Assembly (NCBI GenBank): GCA_031285685.1
Contig: JAITVS010000191.1
Coordinates: forward strand, 1 to 41,107
Source of the DNA: Tannerella sp.
Lineage (GTDB): Bacteria > Bacteroidota > Bacteroidia > Bacteroidales > Tannerellaceae
Length of the DNA: 41,107 nucleotides
Direction of reading: 5' to 3'
This document shows, one piece after another, positions 1 through 9,227 of this stretch (position 1 is the first letter of the stretch; each line of letters opens with the position of its first letter). Below the pieces are notes generated by a model. It was not told the origin of the DNA, searched no databases, and was given only the letters and a program-made list of their open reading frames with translations. The position numbers and the translations under genes are program-made.

Positions 1-112
1 AACTTTGCTTAACAGGTTTGACACAACTGTCTCAAGTTGGAAAGCGTTTAACTATATTGCATTTATGGTAATTCTTCTCAACAAAATAAATAAAAATGAA
101 AAGTCAAGATGA
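1..112 (+). mobile_element. 3' end of an insertion-sequence transposase gene
   Basis: A plus-strand reading frame is open from base 2 to a TGA at 110-112 and enters from beyond the left edge. Its 36 residues include RFDTTVSSWKAFNYIAFMV followed by a lysine/asparagine-rich tail. This pattern (basic residue, aromatic, TT, W, A-F-x-Y-I-A-F) is what I know from the C-termini of DDE transposases of the IS4/IS5 type. The frame runs into the start of a susD-like gene read on the other strand, so the right end of the IS must lie near 100-112. The family is assigned from memory of the pattern only; the catalytic part, the left end and any target duplication are outside the window. Confidence 0.55.
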
Positions 113-172
113 CTTCAATGTAATTGCGCAAAGCAAGGCGCCCATATATACTATTTTTTTCATATCTTTCAT
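104..172 (-). pseudogene. Truncated SusD lipoprotein gene (N-terminal remnant)
   Basis: On the minus strand an ATG lies at 172-170, two bases after the susC stop, and a second in-frame ATG at 163-161. The frame encodes MKDMKKIVYMGALLCAITLK-S-S and then meets TGA at 106-104. The basic start, hydrophobic stretch and terminal serines are what precedes the lipobox cysteine of SusD/RagB lipoproteins, and susD normally follows susC at this spacing. The stop falls where the cysteine codon would be expected, and the sequence beyond it instead reads as a transposase end on the other strand. I infer that a mobile element interrupted susD within its signal-peptide coding region. The rest of susD may lie beyond the left edge. 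Confidence 0.6.
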
Positions 173-174
173 TT

Positions 175-3100
175 TTAGAAGGTTATATTTACACCGGTTG
201 TCCACGTACGGAAAAACGGATAATAAGCTCTCTGGGTATCATTGCCGGCTTCAGGATCAAAAACGTCTAATACATCCGTATGTTCCCAAAGGTCTGTTCC
301 TGCAATATAGACACGTAAATTCTCTATATACTTCTTTGAAATCGGAATCGTATAACCCACCTGCAGATTCTTCAAGCGGATATAAGAACCGTCCTGCACC
401 CACTTATCCGAGGGTTTATAATTATAGGTATTCTGATTGATAATACGGGGAAACATCGCATTCTGATTGTTTTCCGTCCAATAATCCATATGGATCGTCC
501 ACGGCATCAGTTGAGATTCGGCAAACGGAGCAATCGTATTTGTTCTGATCAGGAAGCTTCGCTTTCCAACCCCCTGAAAAAATACGGAAAAATCAAAACC
601 TCTCCATTGAGCGCCCAGATTAATACCATAAAGATAACGGGGAGTAGTGGTTCCAAGATAGACCAAATCACCCGAGTCTTCAGGTGTTGCATTTCCTGCC
701 CCGATTGTGTGATCGGCTTTTCCCTGTGAGACATATTTCACATCGCCACCCGTAACCATATTGTCATTAAAACTTTCGTAGCCCGGATTTGCAGCTTTGT
801 AATCCAGATATTCCTGACGGCTGCTCCAGTATCCATCCGTCTTATATCCCCAGACCGAATTCAGCGGATAACCTTCCAGACGATTTACCAAACCTTCTTT
901 TACGACACTTGCTCCATCATATTTAACCAACTCGTTCTGACTGTCGGAAATATTAAACCCGACCTGATAAGAAACCTCTCCGATCTTATCATTCCAGTTT
1001 GCAGATATTTCCCATCCCCAGGTTTTTAATTCACCAATGTTCTGAGCAGGAACACCTACGCCAATAATGTGCCCGACCTGCATTTCCGCCATCATATTTT
1101 TATTCCGCTTCCAATAGTAATCTGCAGTTAAGTTCAAACGATTCCTTAACAATCCAAGATCAATCCCGATATTGGTAGACTCAATAATCTCCCATGTAAT
1201 ATCTTTTGATGCCATTGTTGCCTGCCAGTACGCCGGATTACCCAACAGATTAATCACCGTACCAGTAGATGTTGTATTATTTTTATTCGTAAGTAACCCC
1301 AGATAAGGAAAATAACCGTCAAGCGCCGAACTATTACCCAATTGCCCCCATGAAGCACGTACTTTAAAATTACCGACATACTCTCTCATTGATTCAAACC
1401 AGGCTTCTTCACTTACACGCCAACCGGCAGAAAAAGATGGAAATATGTCCCAACGCTGATCCGGATCCAAACGTGAACTGCCATCGTAACGGAAATTCGC
1501 CTCAAGCAAATAACGATCTGCAAAGCTGTAATTCAAACGGCCAAAAAGAGAAGCCATTTTCCAGGGCTGAATCAAATCGGAAAGAATAGAGTTAGCGGCC
1601 TCCGAATTCTCATAAAAATTCAAACTGAAAAAGTCATTTGAGAGCAGATTATTTGCCCTGGCCGTTATCTGATCTTTCTTGTATTGTTCATAAGATGCGC
1701 CCAAAAGCACATGAAAAGAATGATTCGTTATTTTATAATCATAATTCAACAATGCTTCAATTTTATCCTGGTAAGCATGGTCTTTTGTTTTAGACACATA
1801 ATTCGGACTGACCGACCTTCGTTCTCCATCTCCGTTTCTGCCTGCCCAGGCAGTCCGGCGCCTATCTATTTCCTGCCTGTAATAACTTGCCTTACGGGAG
1901 GCATTTACGTCAATCGTAAGACCCTTGACAAAATTTTTAAACTGAACACCTATCTTTCCGGTATAATGATCCGTATATCGTTTATCAAACCCTGAATTTT
2001 TCATAAGATCAATCGGATTGTCCTGTAAATCGCCATTATACGGATTCGCATTATACTTGGTATCTTCTTCCGGTTGATAAATAGGCTGGCGCCCACGATT
2101 GGAATAAAGCAAAGAAAGGATATTATTACTTCCATACGAACTCTGTTCAACAAAATTCTGTTGATAGATTGCCAACAAATCGACAGAAACATATTTATTC
2201 AATTCCGTATCAAGTGAAATACGCAGATTGGTCCGTTTGTTTCCGTCCGGTCCATATTTCAGAATACCTTCTTTTGCAAAGAATCCGCCGGAAATATAAT
2301 ATCGTGTCTTTTCACCTCCTCCAGAAACCGAAACGGAATGATCCTGTTGTGTTCCGTAATTATCCAATCCTTCTTCCATCCAGTTCGTACTTGTGAAAAG
2401 ATCCCATCTTGATCCATTCGGGCGATAATTATAGTTCGGATTACCAATCCACGACGAACGTTCCGCACTCAGTTCCGCATTTCCGGTAGCAGCGCCTGTC
2501 ACTGAATTCACGCTTGCATTGATACGCGAGATATTAATAAGCTTTTGTTCATCCCATGAAGAAAGGCGCTCCGGCATAAGCGACGGAATATTTACTCCGA
2601 ACGAGCCATTATAAGAAATTTTTGCTCTTTCTCCGGAACGCCCTTTTTTCGTTGTAACCAACACTACCCCTGCAGCAGCACGGGCTCCATAGATAGAAGC
2701 GGCGGCCGCATCCTTCAGTACAGATATACTTTCGATATCATTCGCATTTAACAAGGCAATATCGCCTTCCACGCCATCAATCAGGACAAGAGCATTCGCC
2801 TTTCCGGCAGAAGACATCCCTCTAATCTGAAGCCCGTTTGTTTCCGAATCCATCTCACCGCCCGGACGACCGCTACTACGCAAAACAGACACTCCCGGCA
2901 ATACACCCTGCATAGACGAAAGAGCATTTGCACTTGGTTTCGAAGCGATCTCATCACCGCTAACTGCTGCGACAGCACCCGTCAAATTCACTTTTTTCTG
3001 GATACCGTATCCTACAACCACCACTTCTTCCACACCAATGGCATCTTCCCTTAACATAACATTTAAATGCGTCTGATTCGTAATAACAATTTCTTCTGTG

Positions 3101-3672
3101 ATGTAACCGATATAAGAAATTATAACAGTCGCATTCTCCGGTACTTTTTCCAGAATAAAATGGCCTTCCATATCACTGATGACTCCCATCGTCGTTCCTT
3201 TTATTACAATATTCGCTCCGGCTACAGGGCCCAAATCATCAGAAATGGTACCCGTAATTGTTCTGGAATCTTTTTGTTGTTGGACAGCCGGAGAAGGGGC
3301 TACCGTCCGGTTTTCTTTTGAGATAATAATTTGCCGGTCGGATATATGATACTGATTATCCGTTCCGTCAAAGACCTGGTCCAAAACCGCATTTATCTGC
3401 TGGTTTTTTACTTTAACAGACACTTTACGATTCAGATCGAGTGATTTATCCAGATAAAAGAATATATATTCACTCGACGCTTCAATTTCATTGAAAACAT
3501 CTTTTATGGTCCGGTTATTGATCTCAATAGTAAAAAATGTTTCCTGTGAATAGCTGTTATTGGCAAAACTTGCGCCAATTCCTAAAAAAGTAAATAACAT
3601 GAAGATTTTCATAATCCGCATTATTTTCCTCTGTTTGACCTTTTTTTGATCTAACATTGATTTTTTTTCCAT
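175..3672 (-). CDS. SusC/RagA TonB-dependent receptor with STN signalling domain
   Basis: An outer-membrane TonB-dependent transporter of the SusC/RagA family, 1165 residues. It would import an oligosaccharide or similar ligand and, through its extra N-terminal domain, signal to the FecR anti-sigma encoded upstream. From the ATG at 3672 the order is: basic leader and signal peptide (about 1-42), STN domain (about 46-118), carboxypeptidase-regulatory-like domain (about 136-200), the SusC signature EEVVVVGYG, plug domain with SIYGARAAAGVVLVTTKKG, and a 22-strand-type barrel ending in an aromatic (GVNITF). The frame is open to a GTG at 3714, but the ATG at 3672 is a more natural start; a further Met 5 residues in is also possible. 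It is third in a sigma-FecR-susC order typical of cell-surface signalling. The partner susD downstream is broken. The ligand cannot be told from sequence. Confidence 0.93.
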   Translation of the reverse strand: MEKKSMLDQKKVKQRKIMRIMKIFMLFTFLGIGASFANNSYSQETFFTIEINNRTIKDVFNEIEASSEYIFFYLDKSLDLNRKVSVKVKNQQINAVLDQVFDGTDNQYHISDRQIIISKENRTVAPSPAVQQQKDSRTITGTISDDLGPVAGANIVIKGTTMGVISDMEGHFILEKVPENATVIISYIGYITEEIVITNQTHLNVMLREDAIGVEEVVVVGYGIQKKVNLTGAVAAVSGDEIASKPSANALSSMQGVLPGVSVLRSSGRPGGEMDSETNGLQIRGMSSAGKANALVLIDGVEGDIALLNANDIESISVLKDAAAASIYGARAAAGVVLVTTKKGRSGERAKISYNGSFGVNIPSLMPERLSSWDEQKLINISRINASVNSVTGAATGNAELSAERSSWIGNPNYNYRPNGSRWDLFTSTNWMEEGLDNYGTQQDHSVSVSGGGEKTRYYISGGFFAKEGILKYGPDGNKRTNLRISLDTELNKYVSVDLLAIYQQNFVEQSSYGSNNILSLLYSNRGRQPIYQPEEDTKYNANPYNGDLQDNPIDLMKNSGFDKRYTDHYTGKIGVQFKNFVKGLTIDVNASRKASYYRQEIDRRRTAWAGRNGDGERRSVSPNYVSKTKDHAYQDKIEALLNYDYKITNHSFHVLLGASYEQYKKDQITARANNLLSNDFFSLNFYENSEAANSILSDLIQPWKMASLFGRLNYSFADRYLLEANFRYDGSSRLDPDQRWDIFPSFSAGWRVSEEAWFESMREYVGNFKVRASWGQLGNSSALDGYFPYLGLLTNKNNTTSTGTVINLLGNPAYWQATMASKDITWEIIESTNIGIDLGLLRNRLNLTADYYWKRNKNMMAEMQVGHIIGVGVPAQNIGELKTWGWEISANWNDKIGEVSYQVGFNISDSQNELVKYDGASVVKEGLVNRLEGYPLNSVWGYKTDGYWSSRQEYLDYKAANPGYESFNDNMVTGGDVKYVSQGKADHTIGAGNATPEDSGDLVYLGTTTPRYLYGINLGAQWRGFDFSVFFQGVGKRSFLIRTNTIAPFAESQLMPWTIHMDYWTENNQNAMFPRIINQNTYNYKPSDKWVQDGSYIRLKNLQVGYTIPISKKYIENLRVYIAGTDLWEHTDVLDVFDPEAGNDTQRAYYPFFRTWTTGVNITF

Positions 3673-3729
3673 AAATTTACACTGATTTAAGTTAGTAGTA
3701 ATTTCTGATAACACTGATTTTTATCATTT

Positions 3730-3797: not shown

Positions 3798-5003
3798 TTA
3801 AAGTTCGACATCTATATATATTTTCTCATTGTTATTGCTGATTTTTATGGGTACTGCCTTTTTCAGTGAGTGAAGAACTTCATCAATATCATCTTTCAGA
3901 TCCAGTTTTCCACTGCATGTAAATTCATTCAATCGTTTATTCCAATCAAGATCAACACCATAAAAATTGGATATTTTCTGAAAAATAACATTCATTTTCT
4001 GTTTGTTAAACTGATAATATCCGTCTTTCCAGGCAACATAATCGTTGACATCCACATGTGTTATTTCATTTTCATGCGTTATTGGATTATATGAATACAT
4101 TTGGCTCGGGGATAACGTTTTTACCTCTTTTTCCGATGTCCGGACCTCCACTTTTCCATCTACAAGCACTACCTGAATTTGCTCTTCCGATTCATAAGCC
4201 GAAATATCGAATTGCGTCCCTAAAACCGTAACATCCAATTGTTTTGTTTTTACAATGAACGGCTTTTTACTATCCTGCTTTACATCCAGAAAAACCTCCC
4301 CCTCCACAAAAATCTCCCGTTTTTTCTCATCAAATGATTCCGGATAGATAACTTTCGAACCGGAATTAACCCATAATTTAGTACCATCATGAAATGTAAG
4401 CGTCGAACGTTTTCCTTTCGGGACAACCAGTTGATTAAATGTTTTTTCGGGACTCATTTTTTCCGCCGTATTTACTTTTTCCGCCTCATTAATATTTACA
4501 GATCCATCTTCCTGATATTCAACGCTTGTCTCTTTTCCATCAATCGAGATGCTTTCATCATTTGACAATATCAGTTGTACATTATTTGCCAAAGTATCCT
4601 GTTTCATATTTTCCAGCATGGATAGATAATCCGTCTCTTCCAGAATCGGCCCTGATCCTTGATAATACCATACAAATCCGATCAACAAAGCAACCGAAGC
4701 TGCAATGCTCAAACCGATCTTTATACTTCGTTGAAATCTTGTATCAAATCTGTGATTTTTCCGGTTAATCCTGTTCCAAAGTTCCCGCTCATCTTCCGAA
4801 GTCATGGATTCCTTTTCTGCACAGCTTTTCAGGTTTTCCAGAAAAGCGCGAGCTATTTTTATTTCTTCAGCCAGTATTTTATCTTCGTTTTCCAGTTCTG
4901 ACCAGAATATTTTATCTGAGTGGGTCGGATGTAATTCCGAATGGATAAAATAATCATCATCCAATAATTGATCAGCCCGATATCCAAAGTAGTCCGATTT
5001 CAT
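3798..5003 (-). CDS. FecR-family anti-sigma factor
   Basis: An inner-membrane anti-sigma/sigma-regulator of the FecR family, 401 residues. It would hold the upstream-encoded ECF sigma factor and release it when the STN domain of the SusC receptor signals. A cytoplasmic N-terminal part (1-93) precedes one transmembrane helix (about 95-114). The periplasmic FecR domain follows, with QLVVPKGKRSTLTFHDGT, a GEVFLDV stretch and a V-LGTQFDISAY stretch. A C-terminal DUF4974-type domain begins at MNVIFQKISNFYGVDLDWN. The N-terminus lacks the compact FecR_N pattern and instead resembles the N-termini usual in Bacteroidota FecR homologues. It is 88 bp downstream of the sigma gene and 125 bp upstream of susC, all on the same strand. 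The product assignment is secure; the specific partner pairing is inferred from gene order. Confidence 0.93.
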   Translation of the reverse strand: MKSDYFGYRADQLLDDDYFIHSELHPTHSDKIFWSELENEDKILAEEIKIARAFLENLKSCAEKESMTSEDERELWNRINRKNHRFDTRFQRSIKIGLSIAASVALLIGFVWYYQGSGPILEETDYLSMLENMKQDTLANNVQLILSNDESISIDGKETSVEYQEDGSVNINEAEKVNTAEKMSPEKTFNQLVVPKGKRSTLTFHDGTKLWVNSGSKVIYPESFDEKKREIFVEGEVFLDVKQDSKKPFIVKTKQLDVTVLGTQFDISAYESEEQIQVVLVDGKVEVRTSEKEVKTLSPSQMYSYNPITHENEITHVDVNDYVAWKDGYYQFNKQKMNVIFQKISNFYGVDLDWNKRLNEFTCSGKLDLKDDIDEVLHSLKKAVPIKISNNNEKIYIDVEL

Positions 5004-5091: not shown

Positions 5092-5700
5092 TTATTTGGA
5101 AATAAAGTTTGAAAGAAAAAGGAATAAAAGAAAACTTTCAAATGAGCCATCATAATTTTCTCTTATTTTATTCAGGGAACGCTGTATCAGGTTTTTGGCC
5201 GATTGATTGTTAAGATCCATCAACTTACAAATATCGTCTAAATCAAGTTCCTGAATATACCGGTAGTAGATAATTTCTTTTTGCCGGGGAGTCAGAATGG
5301 AAATAATTTTTTCGACTTTCTTTTTTTGTTGAATATATTCTTCATTTTCAATGTATTCTTCTTCGACCGTTGGTGCCAGGATAAATTGAGAGTCTTCATC
5401 CAAACCATAATCAACATAAAGTTCTTTTTTTTGTAAGGTACGTATTAATTTATTTTTCAATGAAATCATTAAATACGACTTGACATTGTCAGGAGTTGTT
5501 AATCTGTCACGACTTCTGTATATGGTAGTAAAAACTTCCTGTATGCAATCTTTAATTATCTCGGTATCGGATGTGAAACGTTTACCATATGAATACAGTA
5601 TGTGAATATATGTCTTGTAAAGCCATTGATAGGCATCATTATCTCCGGACAGAAAATGATCCCATTTTATTTTGCTTTTTCCCAATATATCCGATTTCAT
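5092..5700 (-). CDS. ECF-type RNA polymerase sigma factor
   Basis: An extracytoplasmic-function sigma-70 factor of 202 residues, expected to activate the receptor operon. Region 2 includes HFLSGDNDAYQWLYKTYI and SDTEIIKDCIQEVFTTIYRS; region 4 includes ILTPRQKEIIYYRYIQELD and a helix-turn-helix with DICKLMDLNNQSAKNLIQRS. I chose the ATG at 5700 because the family starts just before the 'WDHFLSGD' helix. The reading frame extends upstream to an ATG at 5814, but those 38 residues (rich in R, F, W) do not resemble sigma factors. The gene is followed by FecR and the STN-type SusC. A good TAnnTTTG promoter lies about 180 bp upstream, which leaves a long 5' leader. Confidence 0.93.
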   Translation of the reverse strand: MKSDILGKSKIKWDHFLSGDNDAYQWLYKTYIHILYSYGKRFTSDTEIIKDCIQEVFTTIYRSRDRLTTPDNVKSYLMISLKNKLIRTLQKKELYVDYGLDEDSQFILAPTVEEEYIENEEYIQQKKKVEKIISILTPRQKEIIYYRYIQELDLDDICKLMDLNNQSAKNLIQRSLNKIRENYDGSFESFLLFLFLSNFISK

Positions 5701-5879
5701 ATGTACAATTTTTCTTAATACTAAGGTAATATAGAATTGCTTCCACCTCGTAAACCTATTTCGTTCAGTACGGAAACAATTATTAATCGCTTCCGAAGGA
5801 AGCAAAGCTACCATTGGTTCGTTCTTCGGTTAACTCCCCTTTGGTCATCGATCTTCAGTTCAGGTTTGTTTCATAATTG

Positions 5880-5990: not shown

Positions 5991-8900
5991 TTATTTATTC
6001 CACACACGCGGAGCGGGGGTTCTGGGTAATGGTTTACGATTCTTCAACTCTTTCATTACCTCATCAATCGCGCGGTTTAATTGCTCATCCTCACCGTTCC
6101 ATTCTTTGACAGGATCGTTATCAATCAGAATGTCGGGGTTGACTCCATAATTTTCGATCATCCATTCGCCGTTCATGTCGTAGCTTGTAAAGAACGGTAC
6201 ACGTATATCCGTTCCGTCGATAAAAGGAAGTGAACCGCTGATTCCTACAATTCCTCCCCAGGTTCTCGTACCGATCAGCTTGCCTAATCCAAGGGCGCGG
6301 AAGCCCCATGGAAACAGGTCCCCATCGGAGGCTGAATATTTATTAATCAGGCAAACTTTAGGACCAACCTGTACAGCATCAGGGACAGTTCCGTTGCGGA
6401 CGCTTCCGCGATACATCGTCATGCGGTAAGGCTCACGTGCCAGACGTTCCAGGATCATCGGCGATACATTACCGCCACCATTTGCCCGGTCGTCTATAAT
6501 CAGGCCTTCTTTATCAAGCTGAGGATAGAAATAACGCGCAAATTCGTTTAGTCCGTCAACACCCATATCCGGAATATAGATATATCCTATTTTACCACCT
6601 GAAGCTTTGTCCACTTTCTCTATATTATTCTGAACCCACTGGTAATGAACAAGCGAATATTCTTCTTCAAGCGGGCGGATCACCACTTTCCGGGCTCCAT
6701 TCAACGAGGCTGAACTATTTAAAGAAAGTTCGGTCGGCACATTTGCTTTTCCGACAAGCAAGGTATATAAATCATTCACGCTATTCGCGGGAATACCGTC
6801 AATCGCCACAATGAAATCGCCGCTTTTAGCTTCTATACCCGGTTCCGTCAGCGGTGAACGCAAAGAATTACTCCAGGTTTCACCTTTATAGATTTTTCCG
6901 ATACGGAAAAAGCCACTCTTATCGCGTGAAATTTCCGCACCTAAAAGACCGGTCTTAATACGTCCCGGACGATCCATCTCGCCCGTTGAAACATAGGCGT
7001 GTCCGCAATCAAGCTCTCCGATCATCTCTCCGATCACATAATTCAGATCCAGACGATTCTTTATATAAGGAACCAGAACTTCATATTTTGCTTTCATCGC
7101 TTTCCAGTCTACACCATGCATATTTTCCACATAAAAGCCATCCCGGAAAGCACGCCACGCTTCATCAAAGATCTGCGCCCATTCTTTGGGATAATCAGTT
7201 GTAATTTTCATATCGGATAAATTAACCGCTTTTTCGAAGTTTGCTTTTCCCGCCGGTATATCCATCACATAAACCTGTCCGCCTTTAAAGAATCCGGCTT
7301 TTTTACTTCCCGGTTCAACCCACATACGCGCACCGTCGGCAATCTGGTCTTCCTTATTCTTATCCAGATCATACATAAACATGGATCCTCCGCGGGAATA
7401 GTATACCTTGCTGCCATCCGAATAAAAACTGCCATAGAACCCGGAACCCACAGGAATTCTCACAATACGGTCGGAGAGCCCATCCGTATCAATAACAACA
7501 TTCTTAACCGGCTTATCGCCTTTTTTATCATCTTCTTTTTTCTTTCCTTCCTCCACCTTTATCTCCACTTTTTTTGTTTCGTTCCCGTCATCTTTCTGTA
7601 TAAAAGGAGACGGAGTCTCTTTCTGCAGCAAAGCAAGATAGACTCCGTTATCTGACCTTCCATAAATATGGTTCCATTCTTTTGAACCATAGGTCGGATT
7701 AAAATCACGGGAAGAAGTGAATACCAGGTATTTTCCATCCGTACTGAATACCGGAGAGCCGGATTCATACCAACGGTCGGTGACTGCATATTCTTTTTTA
7801 TCGGCAAGGTTATAAACATATACGATCGAAAAATCATTCGATGCATCACGCGTATAGGTAAGCCATCTGGTATCCGGAGAAAACGTAACATCACGCGGGA
7901 TACTGACAGAGTCCTGCAGAACGATCGTCTTATTTTTATTCTGCACATTTAGAAGAACGACCCTGTTTTTACGATCAGTATAGACAATATAACTGCTATT
8001 CGGACTCCACTCAAAATCACGGATGTACGTATCATTATTCTTTGTCAGGGCTATAATCTCACCTCCTTCGGCAGGCTGCATATAAAGTTCCGTCTCGCCG
8101 GTAATATCAGATATATAGGCAATGTGTTTCCCATCGGGAGACCATGCGGCGGAACGTTCGTGAGCGCCGGGAGTACGTGTTATATTCTTTGTTACCCCCT
8201 GTTCCGCCGGGAGGTTAAATATTTCGCCGCGGGCAGTAATAACCAGACGTTTTCCTTCGGGAGAAAGACTTGCTGCGGAGAGGTATTTACCTCCGTCTTT
8301 TATTTCACTGCGGGCATATATATTGTCGGACGTAAGCGTTATATTCACCTTTTCCGCTTTTTTCGCAGAGGGATCCAGCTTATAAATATAACCGCCGTTT
8401 TCAAAAACAATCATTTGACCGTTTGTCGCAGGAAATTTTACATCAAAATCCGTAAAGTTCGTAACTTTGGATGTTTCCTTTGTTTTTGTATTATAAACAA
8501 ATATATTCATCGTACGATCCCGATCGGAAGCAAAATAAATTTCATCACCCACCCACATCGGAAAGATATCCTGAGCATCATTATTTGTTATGTTTTCGAC
8601 AGACTTTTTATCCGCATCATAGATCCATATATCATCGGCCATACCCCCTTTATAGTACTTCCAGGTACGAAATTCACGCATCACACGATTATATGCCAGC
8701 TTCTTTCCATCGGGAGAATAACTGCAGAAACCACCTTCAGGCAAAGGAATAAATTCCGAAAGGCTGCCTTCCTTGCTCACTAATTTCAGGTTACCTTCAA
8801 AACCGCTACCGATCCGATTCCGGTATACGACATGGTTTCCATCTGTCGTCCAACACATAACAATATTATTCGGCCCCATACGGTCACCCAGGTCGTCACG

Positions 8901-9227
8901 ACTGTTTGTCGCCGTATATGTCAGCCGTAACGGTTCGCCGCCATCAGACGGGATGGTATAAACTTCCGTATTTCCGTCATACTGCCCTGTGAATGCAATA
9001 GTCTTTCCATCCGGAGAAAAACGGGGAAACATTTCATACCCCACATGCGAAGTAAGCCGCTTCGCCTCACCACCATTAACCGAAACTTTGTACAAATCAC
9101 CCGCATACGTAAATACGATTTCGGAGCCATTCGTAGAAGGAAAACGCAACAACCGCGCCTCCTCGGCTTTGCCTGTTACGATAGCGAAAGCCATACATAA
9201 CACACTACACAAAAACACTTTTTTCAT
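5991..9227 (-). CDS. Tricorn-like S41 protease with beta-propellers and PDZ domain
   Basis: A large serine protease of the Tricorn type (peptidase family S41), 1078 residues, which trims peptides. A signal peptide (about 1-22, MKKVFLCSVLCMAFAIVTGK) sends it to the periplasm, unlike archaeal Tricorn, which is cytosolic. Two propeller regions of PD40/WD40-like repeats follow (about 30-340 and 350-680, with repeated FSPDGK and WSPDGK). After these come the core C1 domain, a PDZ domain (about 760-850), and the C2 peptidase domain. Candidate catalytic residues match archaeal Tricorn closely: His743 in CGHAYVS, Ser967-Asp968 in SASDGD, and Glu1025 in MIENYGVNPD. A low-complexity KKKEDDKKGDK stretch links the propellers. 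The gene stands alone, with a terminator after it and a 26-bp repeat just upstream. Confidence 0.95.
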   Translation of the reverse strand: MKKVFLCSVLCMAFAIVTGKAEEARLLRFPSTNGSEIVFTYAGDLYKVSVNGGEAKRLTSHVGYEMFPRFSPDGKTIAFTGQYDGNTEVYTIPSDGGEPLRLTYTATNSRDDLGDRMGPNNIVMCWTTDGNHVVYRNRIGSGFEGNLKLVSKEGSLSEFIPLPEGGFCSYSPDGKKLAYNRVMREFRTWKYYKGGMADDIWIYDADKKSVENITNNDAQDIFPMWVGDEIYFASDRDRTMNIFVYNTKTKETSKVTNFTDFDVKFPATNGQMIVFENGGYIYKLDPSAKKAEKVNITLTSDNIYARSEIKDGGKYLSAASLSPEGKRLVITARGEIFNLPAEQGVTKNITRTPGAHERSAAWSPDGKHIAYISDITGETELYMQPAEGGEIIALTKNNDTYIRDFEWSPNSSYIVYTDRKNRVVLLNVQNKNKTIVLQDSVSIPRDVTFSPDTRWLTYTRDASNDFSIVYVYNLADKKEYAVTDRWYESGSPVFSTDGKYLVFTSSRDFNPTYGSKEWNHIYGRSDNGVYLALLQKETPSPFIQKDDGNETKKVEIKVEEGKKKEDDKKGDKPVKNVVIDTDGLSDRIVRIPVGSGFYGSFYSDGSKVYYSRGGSMFMYDLDKNKEDQIADGARMWVEPGSKKAGFFKGGQVYVMDIPAGKANFEKAVNLSDMKITTDYPKEWAQIFDEAWRAFRDGFYVENMHGVDWKAMKAKYEVLVPYIKNRLDLNYVIGEMIGELDCGHAYVSTGEMDRPGRIKTGLLGAEISRDKSGFFRIGKIYKGETWSNSLRSPLTEPGIEAKSGDFIVAIDGIPANSVNDLYTLLVGKANVPTELSLNSSASLNGARKVVIRPLEEEYSLVHYQWVQNNIEKVDKASGGKIGYIYIPDMGVDGLNEFARYFYPQLDKEGLIIDDRANGGGNVSPMILERLAREPYRMTMYRGSVRNGTVPDAVQVGPKVCLINKYSASDGDLFPWGFRALGLGKLIGTRTWGGIVGISGSLPFIDGTDIRVPFFTSYDMNGEWMIENYGVNPDILIDNDPVKEWNGEDEQLNRAIDEVMKELKNRKPLPRTPAPRVWNK

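Follow-up and report, generated by a model that had tools for sequence, protein, structure and literature searches.

A susD gene in a draft Tannerella genome appears to be interrupted by an IS5-family insertion sequence

Introduction

Does a SusC transporter gene that lacks an intact susD beside it represent a new kind of transporter, or a pair that has been broken? The question is raised by the first bases of a 41,107-nucleotide stretch of DNA, referred to here as the window, which comes from contig JAITVS010000191.1 (positions 1 to 41,107, forward strand) of a Tannerella sp. assembly (GCA_031285685.1). An initial sequence-only reading of the window proposed that an insertion sequence (IS) had interrupted susD right after an STN-type susC. 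This proposal is borne out by both ends of the IS, both halves of susD and the STN domain in SusC. The assembly is a draft of 5,577,185 bases in 423 contigs (completeness 91.86, contamination 5.04), in which the window lies on contig C136.

Results

The locus and its relative

The locus is encoded on the minus strand and comprises a sigma factor with sigma-70 regions 2 and 4 (5092..5814, domain match), a FecR-type protein (3798..5003, domain match) and a susC gene (175..3714) whose product carries STN, CarbopepD_reg_2 and Plug domains (TIGR04056, 852.8 bits). All three frames are open, as the sequence-only reading had inferred. The sigma factor is adjoined on its upstream side by a tricorn-protease-like protein (5991-9227, minus strand; PD40, Tricorn_C1, PDZ_Tricorn and Peptidase_S41 domains).

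A single related SusC, 75% identical, was found in our search, at locus L009 of the metagenome genome Tannerella sp. TD116_bin63. The two loci share the same gene order, with 75-77% identity for SusC, 81-82% for the remainder of SusD described below and 70% for the next protein. In contrast to the window's locus, the susD of L009 is uninterrupted, beginning 14 bases after SusC and starting MKQIFYIGAIFCAVTFSACDDLLDV, and an alginate-lyase domain is joined there to the GH88-like part. Among 41 genomes of the genus, including the window's own, this SusD was found at more than 80% identity only in the own genome and in G023, and at 52-57% in three more (E up to 1e-100). L009 probably derives from G023, given that the contig positions agree, and by its position the TAA in the G023 match is the natural stop of its SusD. 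The SusC/SusD locus looks accessory.

The right end of a multicopy insertion sequence

Bases 1..116 of the window (plus strand) are the right end of an IS5-type insertion sequence that is present in several copies. When window positions 1-172 were searched against the own genome, nine places matched. Apart from the window itself, these are seven further contig ends, with 98-100% identity over 114-124 bases, and, at 79%, the end of contig C28. The eight ends, the window's included, were compared and show zero differences through base 116 and divergence after it, which sets base 116 as the right end of the IS; the terminal repeat GTCAAGATGACTTC lies at 103-116. Given this identity at eight contig ends, the presence of an IS end in the window is beyond chance.

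Within this end, positions 2..112 (plus strand) translate as TLLNRFDTTVSSWKAFNYIAFMVILLNKINKNEKSR and finish with FMVILLNKINKNEKSR and a stop codon. These 36 codons and stop resemble the C-terminus of a 275-aa transposase from a related element, L073 (68% over 34 residues). The 36-residue frame alone has no Pfam match. It does match transposase-like frames elsewhere in the order and on Bacteroides plasmids, and the earlier claim that the plus strand outward of the susD piece encodes a transposase C-terminus holds on these grounds.

The two halves of susD

The 5' fragment of susD occupies 117..172 (minus strand) and consists of the start codon, the signal peptide MKDMKKIVYMGALLCAIT and two bases of the next Leu codon. 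From position 172, the minus strand reads MKDMKKIVYMGALLCAITLKSS up to a stop codon; the susD part of this frame is MKDMKKIVYMGALLCAITL, after which it runs into IS sequence. As had been proposed, the start directly follows susC: the susC stop codon ends at base 175, and two bases separate it from the start. The second Met of the fragment corresponds to the start of the L009 SusD.

The L009 SusD was then used as a query against the window's own genome. This returned a single strong match, 81% from residue 14 onward, on contig C25 at the end carrying the left end of the IS. The matched remainder of susD (G000:C25:29681-31411 = L048:17682-19412, minus strand) comprises 576 codons without a stop, starts Leu-Ser-Gly-Cys and is 81.5% identical to the L009 SusD. 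Both of its SusD domains score above the cut-off (PF07980, SusD_RagB, 129.5 bits, 2.6e-37; PF14322, SusD-like_3, 67 bits, 3.4e-18). A further 80 SusD-like matches in the own genome reach 25-43% identity over the matched stretches and speak neither for nor against replacement by a distant SusD.

A 3-bp repeat connects the two halves in frame; it reads AAT at 117..119 of the window, and its other copy (ATT read outward) is on C25 beside the IS left end. Once one copy is removed, the joined flanks read MKDMKKIVYMGALLCAITLSGCDDLLDVTPGSEL and translate as MKDMKKIVYMGALLCAITLSGCDDLL, with ...CAITLSGCDD at the junction against ...CAVTFSACDD in the L009 relative. We take L-S-G-C to be the lipobox. The break falls within the codon for the Leu that stands three residues ahead of the lipobox cysteine, so that the signal peptide is severed from the lipobox: the peptide lies in the window and L-S-G-C on C25, in separate frames with IS sequence between them. 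The sequence-only reading had placed the break exactly at the cysteine; this position is corrected here by three codons. No uninterrupted copy of susD is present in the assembly, and no exact empty junction was found there either, the one match having 3 mismatches.

Gene order beyond susD also follows L009. On C25, the next gene encodes a protein of 226 aa that shares 70% identity, over 212 residues, with its 208-aa counterpart after susD in L009. The gene after it encodes a GH88-like protein, which aligns over 385 residues and at 56% identity with the second part of the 775-aa alginate lyase/GH88-like protein of L009. A GH2 enzyme lies beyond, on the opposite strand. Taken alone, the 3-bp repeat is weak support for pairing the window with C25: among the 8 x 8 end pairs, C23 fits the window equally well, C25 also fits other right ends, and for 4 of the 16 ends no partner shares 3 bp (right end of C59; left ends of C324, C331 and C421). 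Pairing the other IS copies by their 3-bp repeats was tried over the same end pairs and rejected as too weak a test. From these data we infer that the window contig and C25 are neighbors across an assembly gap.

The left end, the interior and other copies

The terminal repeat was searched for in the own genome with up to 2 mismatches allowed, yielding eight exact copies at the known right ends and nine places with one mismatch. Eight of these nine (C23, C25, C157, C324, C325, C331, C345 and C421) read GAAGTTATCTTGAC, share their neighboring sequence and all lie at contig ends, and thus represent the left end of the IS. The element therefore has terminal inverted repeats, with 13 of 14 positions matching between the left end, GAAGTTATCTTGAC, and the right end read inward, GAAGTCATCTTGAC. 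All 16 IS ends (eight right, eight left) are contig ends. A search of the own-genome bin with an ISBf6-type transposase as query did not recover the element's interior; the query matched only the known ends, C28, a 272-residue frame on C221 (30%) and a fragment on C330 (36%). Extension to the left, which the sequence-only reading had set as a check, thus recovered the IS left end, the 3-bp repeat and the rest of susD from the lipobox, across contigs, but not a full IS between them.

The 16 IS-bearing ends were also scanned for frames of at least 100 codons, a scan that is blind to short fragments such as the 18-codon susD piece. Besides the remainder on C25, a frame on C324 is probably cut by an IS copy, frames on C59 and C23 open into the IS and likely start inside the flank, and at the remaining 11 ends (C136 aside) no frame of at least 100 codons running into the IS was judged cut. 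The seemingly cut frame on C324 (L058:121-1432) carries GLIGY-type repeats. The copy on C266 (L054:147-1078) adjoins two transposase-like frames, presumably of IS982-like type.

Family and relatives of the element

Among the 392 other genomes of the order that were searched, five carry transposase-like frames that match the 36-residue frame at 57-81% (six of 393 once the own genome is counted). Matches also occur in 12 plasmid records. Nine of these are Bacteroides records at 65-68% over 34 residues, eight annotated as ISBf6 family and one as IS5 family; the remaining three reach 46-49%. The family name expected from this short frame could thus be given through relatives, and assignment of the element to the IS5 family is well supported by these sequence matches. 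The ISBf6-type transposase of NZ_CP036548.1 is 60% identical over 273 residues to that of L073. It scores 127.2 bits against NF033580 ('IS5 family transposase', cut-off 110), above the cut-off, while the L073 protein, at 105 bits, falls under it. Domain matches in the L073 transposase are DUF4096 (7e-10), DDE_Tnp_4 (9e-8) and DDE_Tnp_1 (1.9e-7). The NZ_CP036548.1 copy (L088:628-2108) adjoins nimE, annotated as a 5-nitroimidazole reductase, on a mobilizable Bacteroides plasmid.

A DNA search of 100 relatives, including the own genome, matched four. The best match, G054, was rejected as a source of the full element, as it holds only a 292-bp deletion derivative of a related element. This derivative (L068:1987-2278) retains about 27 bp of the left end and 114 bp of the right end, and sits just after a polynucleotide phosphorylase-like gene. 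The L073 element (genome G244, same order) is complete, with 913 bp between its ends, the 3-bp repeat GCT on both sides and the 275-aa transposase. It resembles the window's element in its kind of ends and in having a 3-bp repeat, and differs from it in the transposase, at 68% over the last 34 residues. Among the four relatives with both ends read, L073 is the only one with such a repeat; none is seen at L072 (911 bp), L080 (924 bp) or L082 (shortened), and the transposase frame of L080 is interrupted by a stop. Judged from these relatives, the window's element would be about 0.9 kb in size.

A stem-loop before the transposase start

Only one detail of the element is mildly unusual, a stem-loop immediately ahead of the transposase start. 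At the left end on C25 (G000:C25:31413-31529), a 10-pair stem extends up to the base that precedes the transposase ATG and, read in the susD direction, is followed by seven T. In L073 (L073:700-795), a 10-pair stem with a similar loop ends 2 bases before the ATG; its sequence differs from that of the window's element and the pairing is kept (GGTTGTCGAT/ATCGACAACC against AGGAAGCGTT/AACGCTTCCT). L080 has the same stem sequence as the window's element, 1 base before the ATG, whereas no such stem-loop was seen in the ISBf6-type leader.

Out of 300 mononucleotide shuffles, a weak test in which G-U pairs were allowed, a stem as long arose in 17 for the own left end, 14 for L073, 27 for L080, 37 for L078, 47 for L074, 62 for L072 and 235 for the ISBf6-type leader. 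Folding of dinucleotide shuffles of the own left end gave z-scores of -2.63 and -2.59 for the two strands, with 5 and 3 of 200 shuffles as good. A terminator scan of the left end, which allows loops of 3-8 bases, returned none; the loop here has 30.

IS10 and IS50 hold down read-through translation by folding, and the stem of the window's element may likewise hold down the transposase in read-through messages. In IS10, antisense RNA holds transposase expression down at the translation start (PMC4265352). The likeness to IS10 thus lies in control at the transposase translation start. The difference is that the window's element shows a leader stem-loop only, from which a block on read-through messages would follow. 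Since the element lies antisense to susD, with a run of seven T behind the stem as read towards susD's downstream genes, it may also end transcription into the genes after susD. Both proposed roles are weakened by the ISBf6-type leader, in which no such stem-loop was seen, by the weak shuffle test and by the terminator scan, which returned none for loops of 3-8 bases. Combining both strands, the left end could be a two-way insulator: the stem-loop would cover the transposase start in incoming messages, from which the element's own message, starting inside the loop, would escape, and on the other strand stem and T run would end transcription of the host operon. We consider this quite unlikely; if true, it would make each insertion a clean operon off switch, possibly reversible by excision.

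Discussion

Taken together, we put the probability at about 0.95 that an IS5-family element inserted in the signal-peptide part of susD in this sigma/FecR/SusC/SusD locus, leaving a 3-bp repeat. Upon transposition of the element into this region, the signal peptide and the mature SusD would have come to lie on its opposite sides, so that SusD is very probably not made as a lipoprotein and would not reach the outer membrane, while the SusC, FecR and sigma factor frames stay open. SusC would then be without its lid. By analogy, the locus is likely to be largely off for import: in PMC7782687, a strain without the SusD protein Bt1762 needs about 8 h before it grows on levan, as do TonB-box mutants of the same transporter.

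The insertion is apparently recent, as both the open remainder of susD and the identity of the IS right ends over their shared length fit such an age. Measured against L009, the susD remainder has a dN/dS of 0.074 and susC one of 0.071; with dS near saturation (1.6 and 2.2), this similarity says only that no decay has built up.

Three other accounts were weighed against insertion with simple loss of function. Surface receptors in general are entry routes for phages, bacteriocins or antibiotics, and loss of SusD could have been favored for that reason if the SusC/SusD pair were such a route. Nothing at the window's locus points to this, and in Flavobacterium johnsoniae a ragB/susD frameshift that had arisen during coevolution with an antibiotic producer left susceptibility unchanged when put in the ancestor (PMC10197871), making selected loss very unlikely here. 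Still less probable is a reversible switch, in which the element inserts and excises within the population and toggles the SusC/SusD pair. The remainder of susD is open and the repeat measures 3 bp, so that excision leaving one or two copies would keep the frame; the assembly, however, holds no exact empty junction, and no paper joining phase variation, insertion sequences, precise excision and Bacteroides was found in the limited literature searched. To our knowledge, precise excision at useful rates is not known for IS5-type elements. Of the sequence-only reading's two suggestions, loss of SusD through a recent insertion fits the data, and on/off switching finds no evidence in the assembly. 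The least probable account is an assembly or binning artefact, in which the IS end and the two susD halves stem from different strains or are wrongly joined. For it one could cite the 423-contig draft with 5% contamination, the position of all 16 IS ends at contig ends and, on our reading, left-end lengths that agree with a simple repeat boundary in just three of eight contigs (C324, C331 and C421). Against it stand the agreement of the susD flanks in frame, homology and gene order, and the right-end lengths (113, 115, 116, 118 or 119): on our reading, each of the eight is what remains of 119 once the flank bases common to another copy are subtracted, as an assembly-graph repeat boundary would give. 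The poor fit of the left ends also makes it a weak inference that the assembly graph holds no empty path.

Insertion of the IS5-family element thus remains the preferred reading, and it is well supported that this is an ordinary IS disruption and a new instance for a susD gene. In the limited literature searched, which does not prove absence, no print report of an IS inside susD was found; one paper describes a duplication with an IS3 element, not in susD. The apparent SusC without SusD in this genome is accordingly best explained by disruption of the pair, not by a novel type of transporter. More generally, a gene disruption in a draft genome can go unnoticed when copies of an IS lie at contig ends, and for predictions of glycan use in this Tannerella genome the locus should be counted as probably off.
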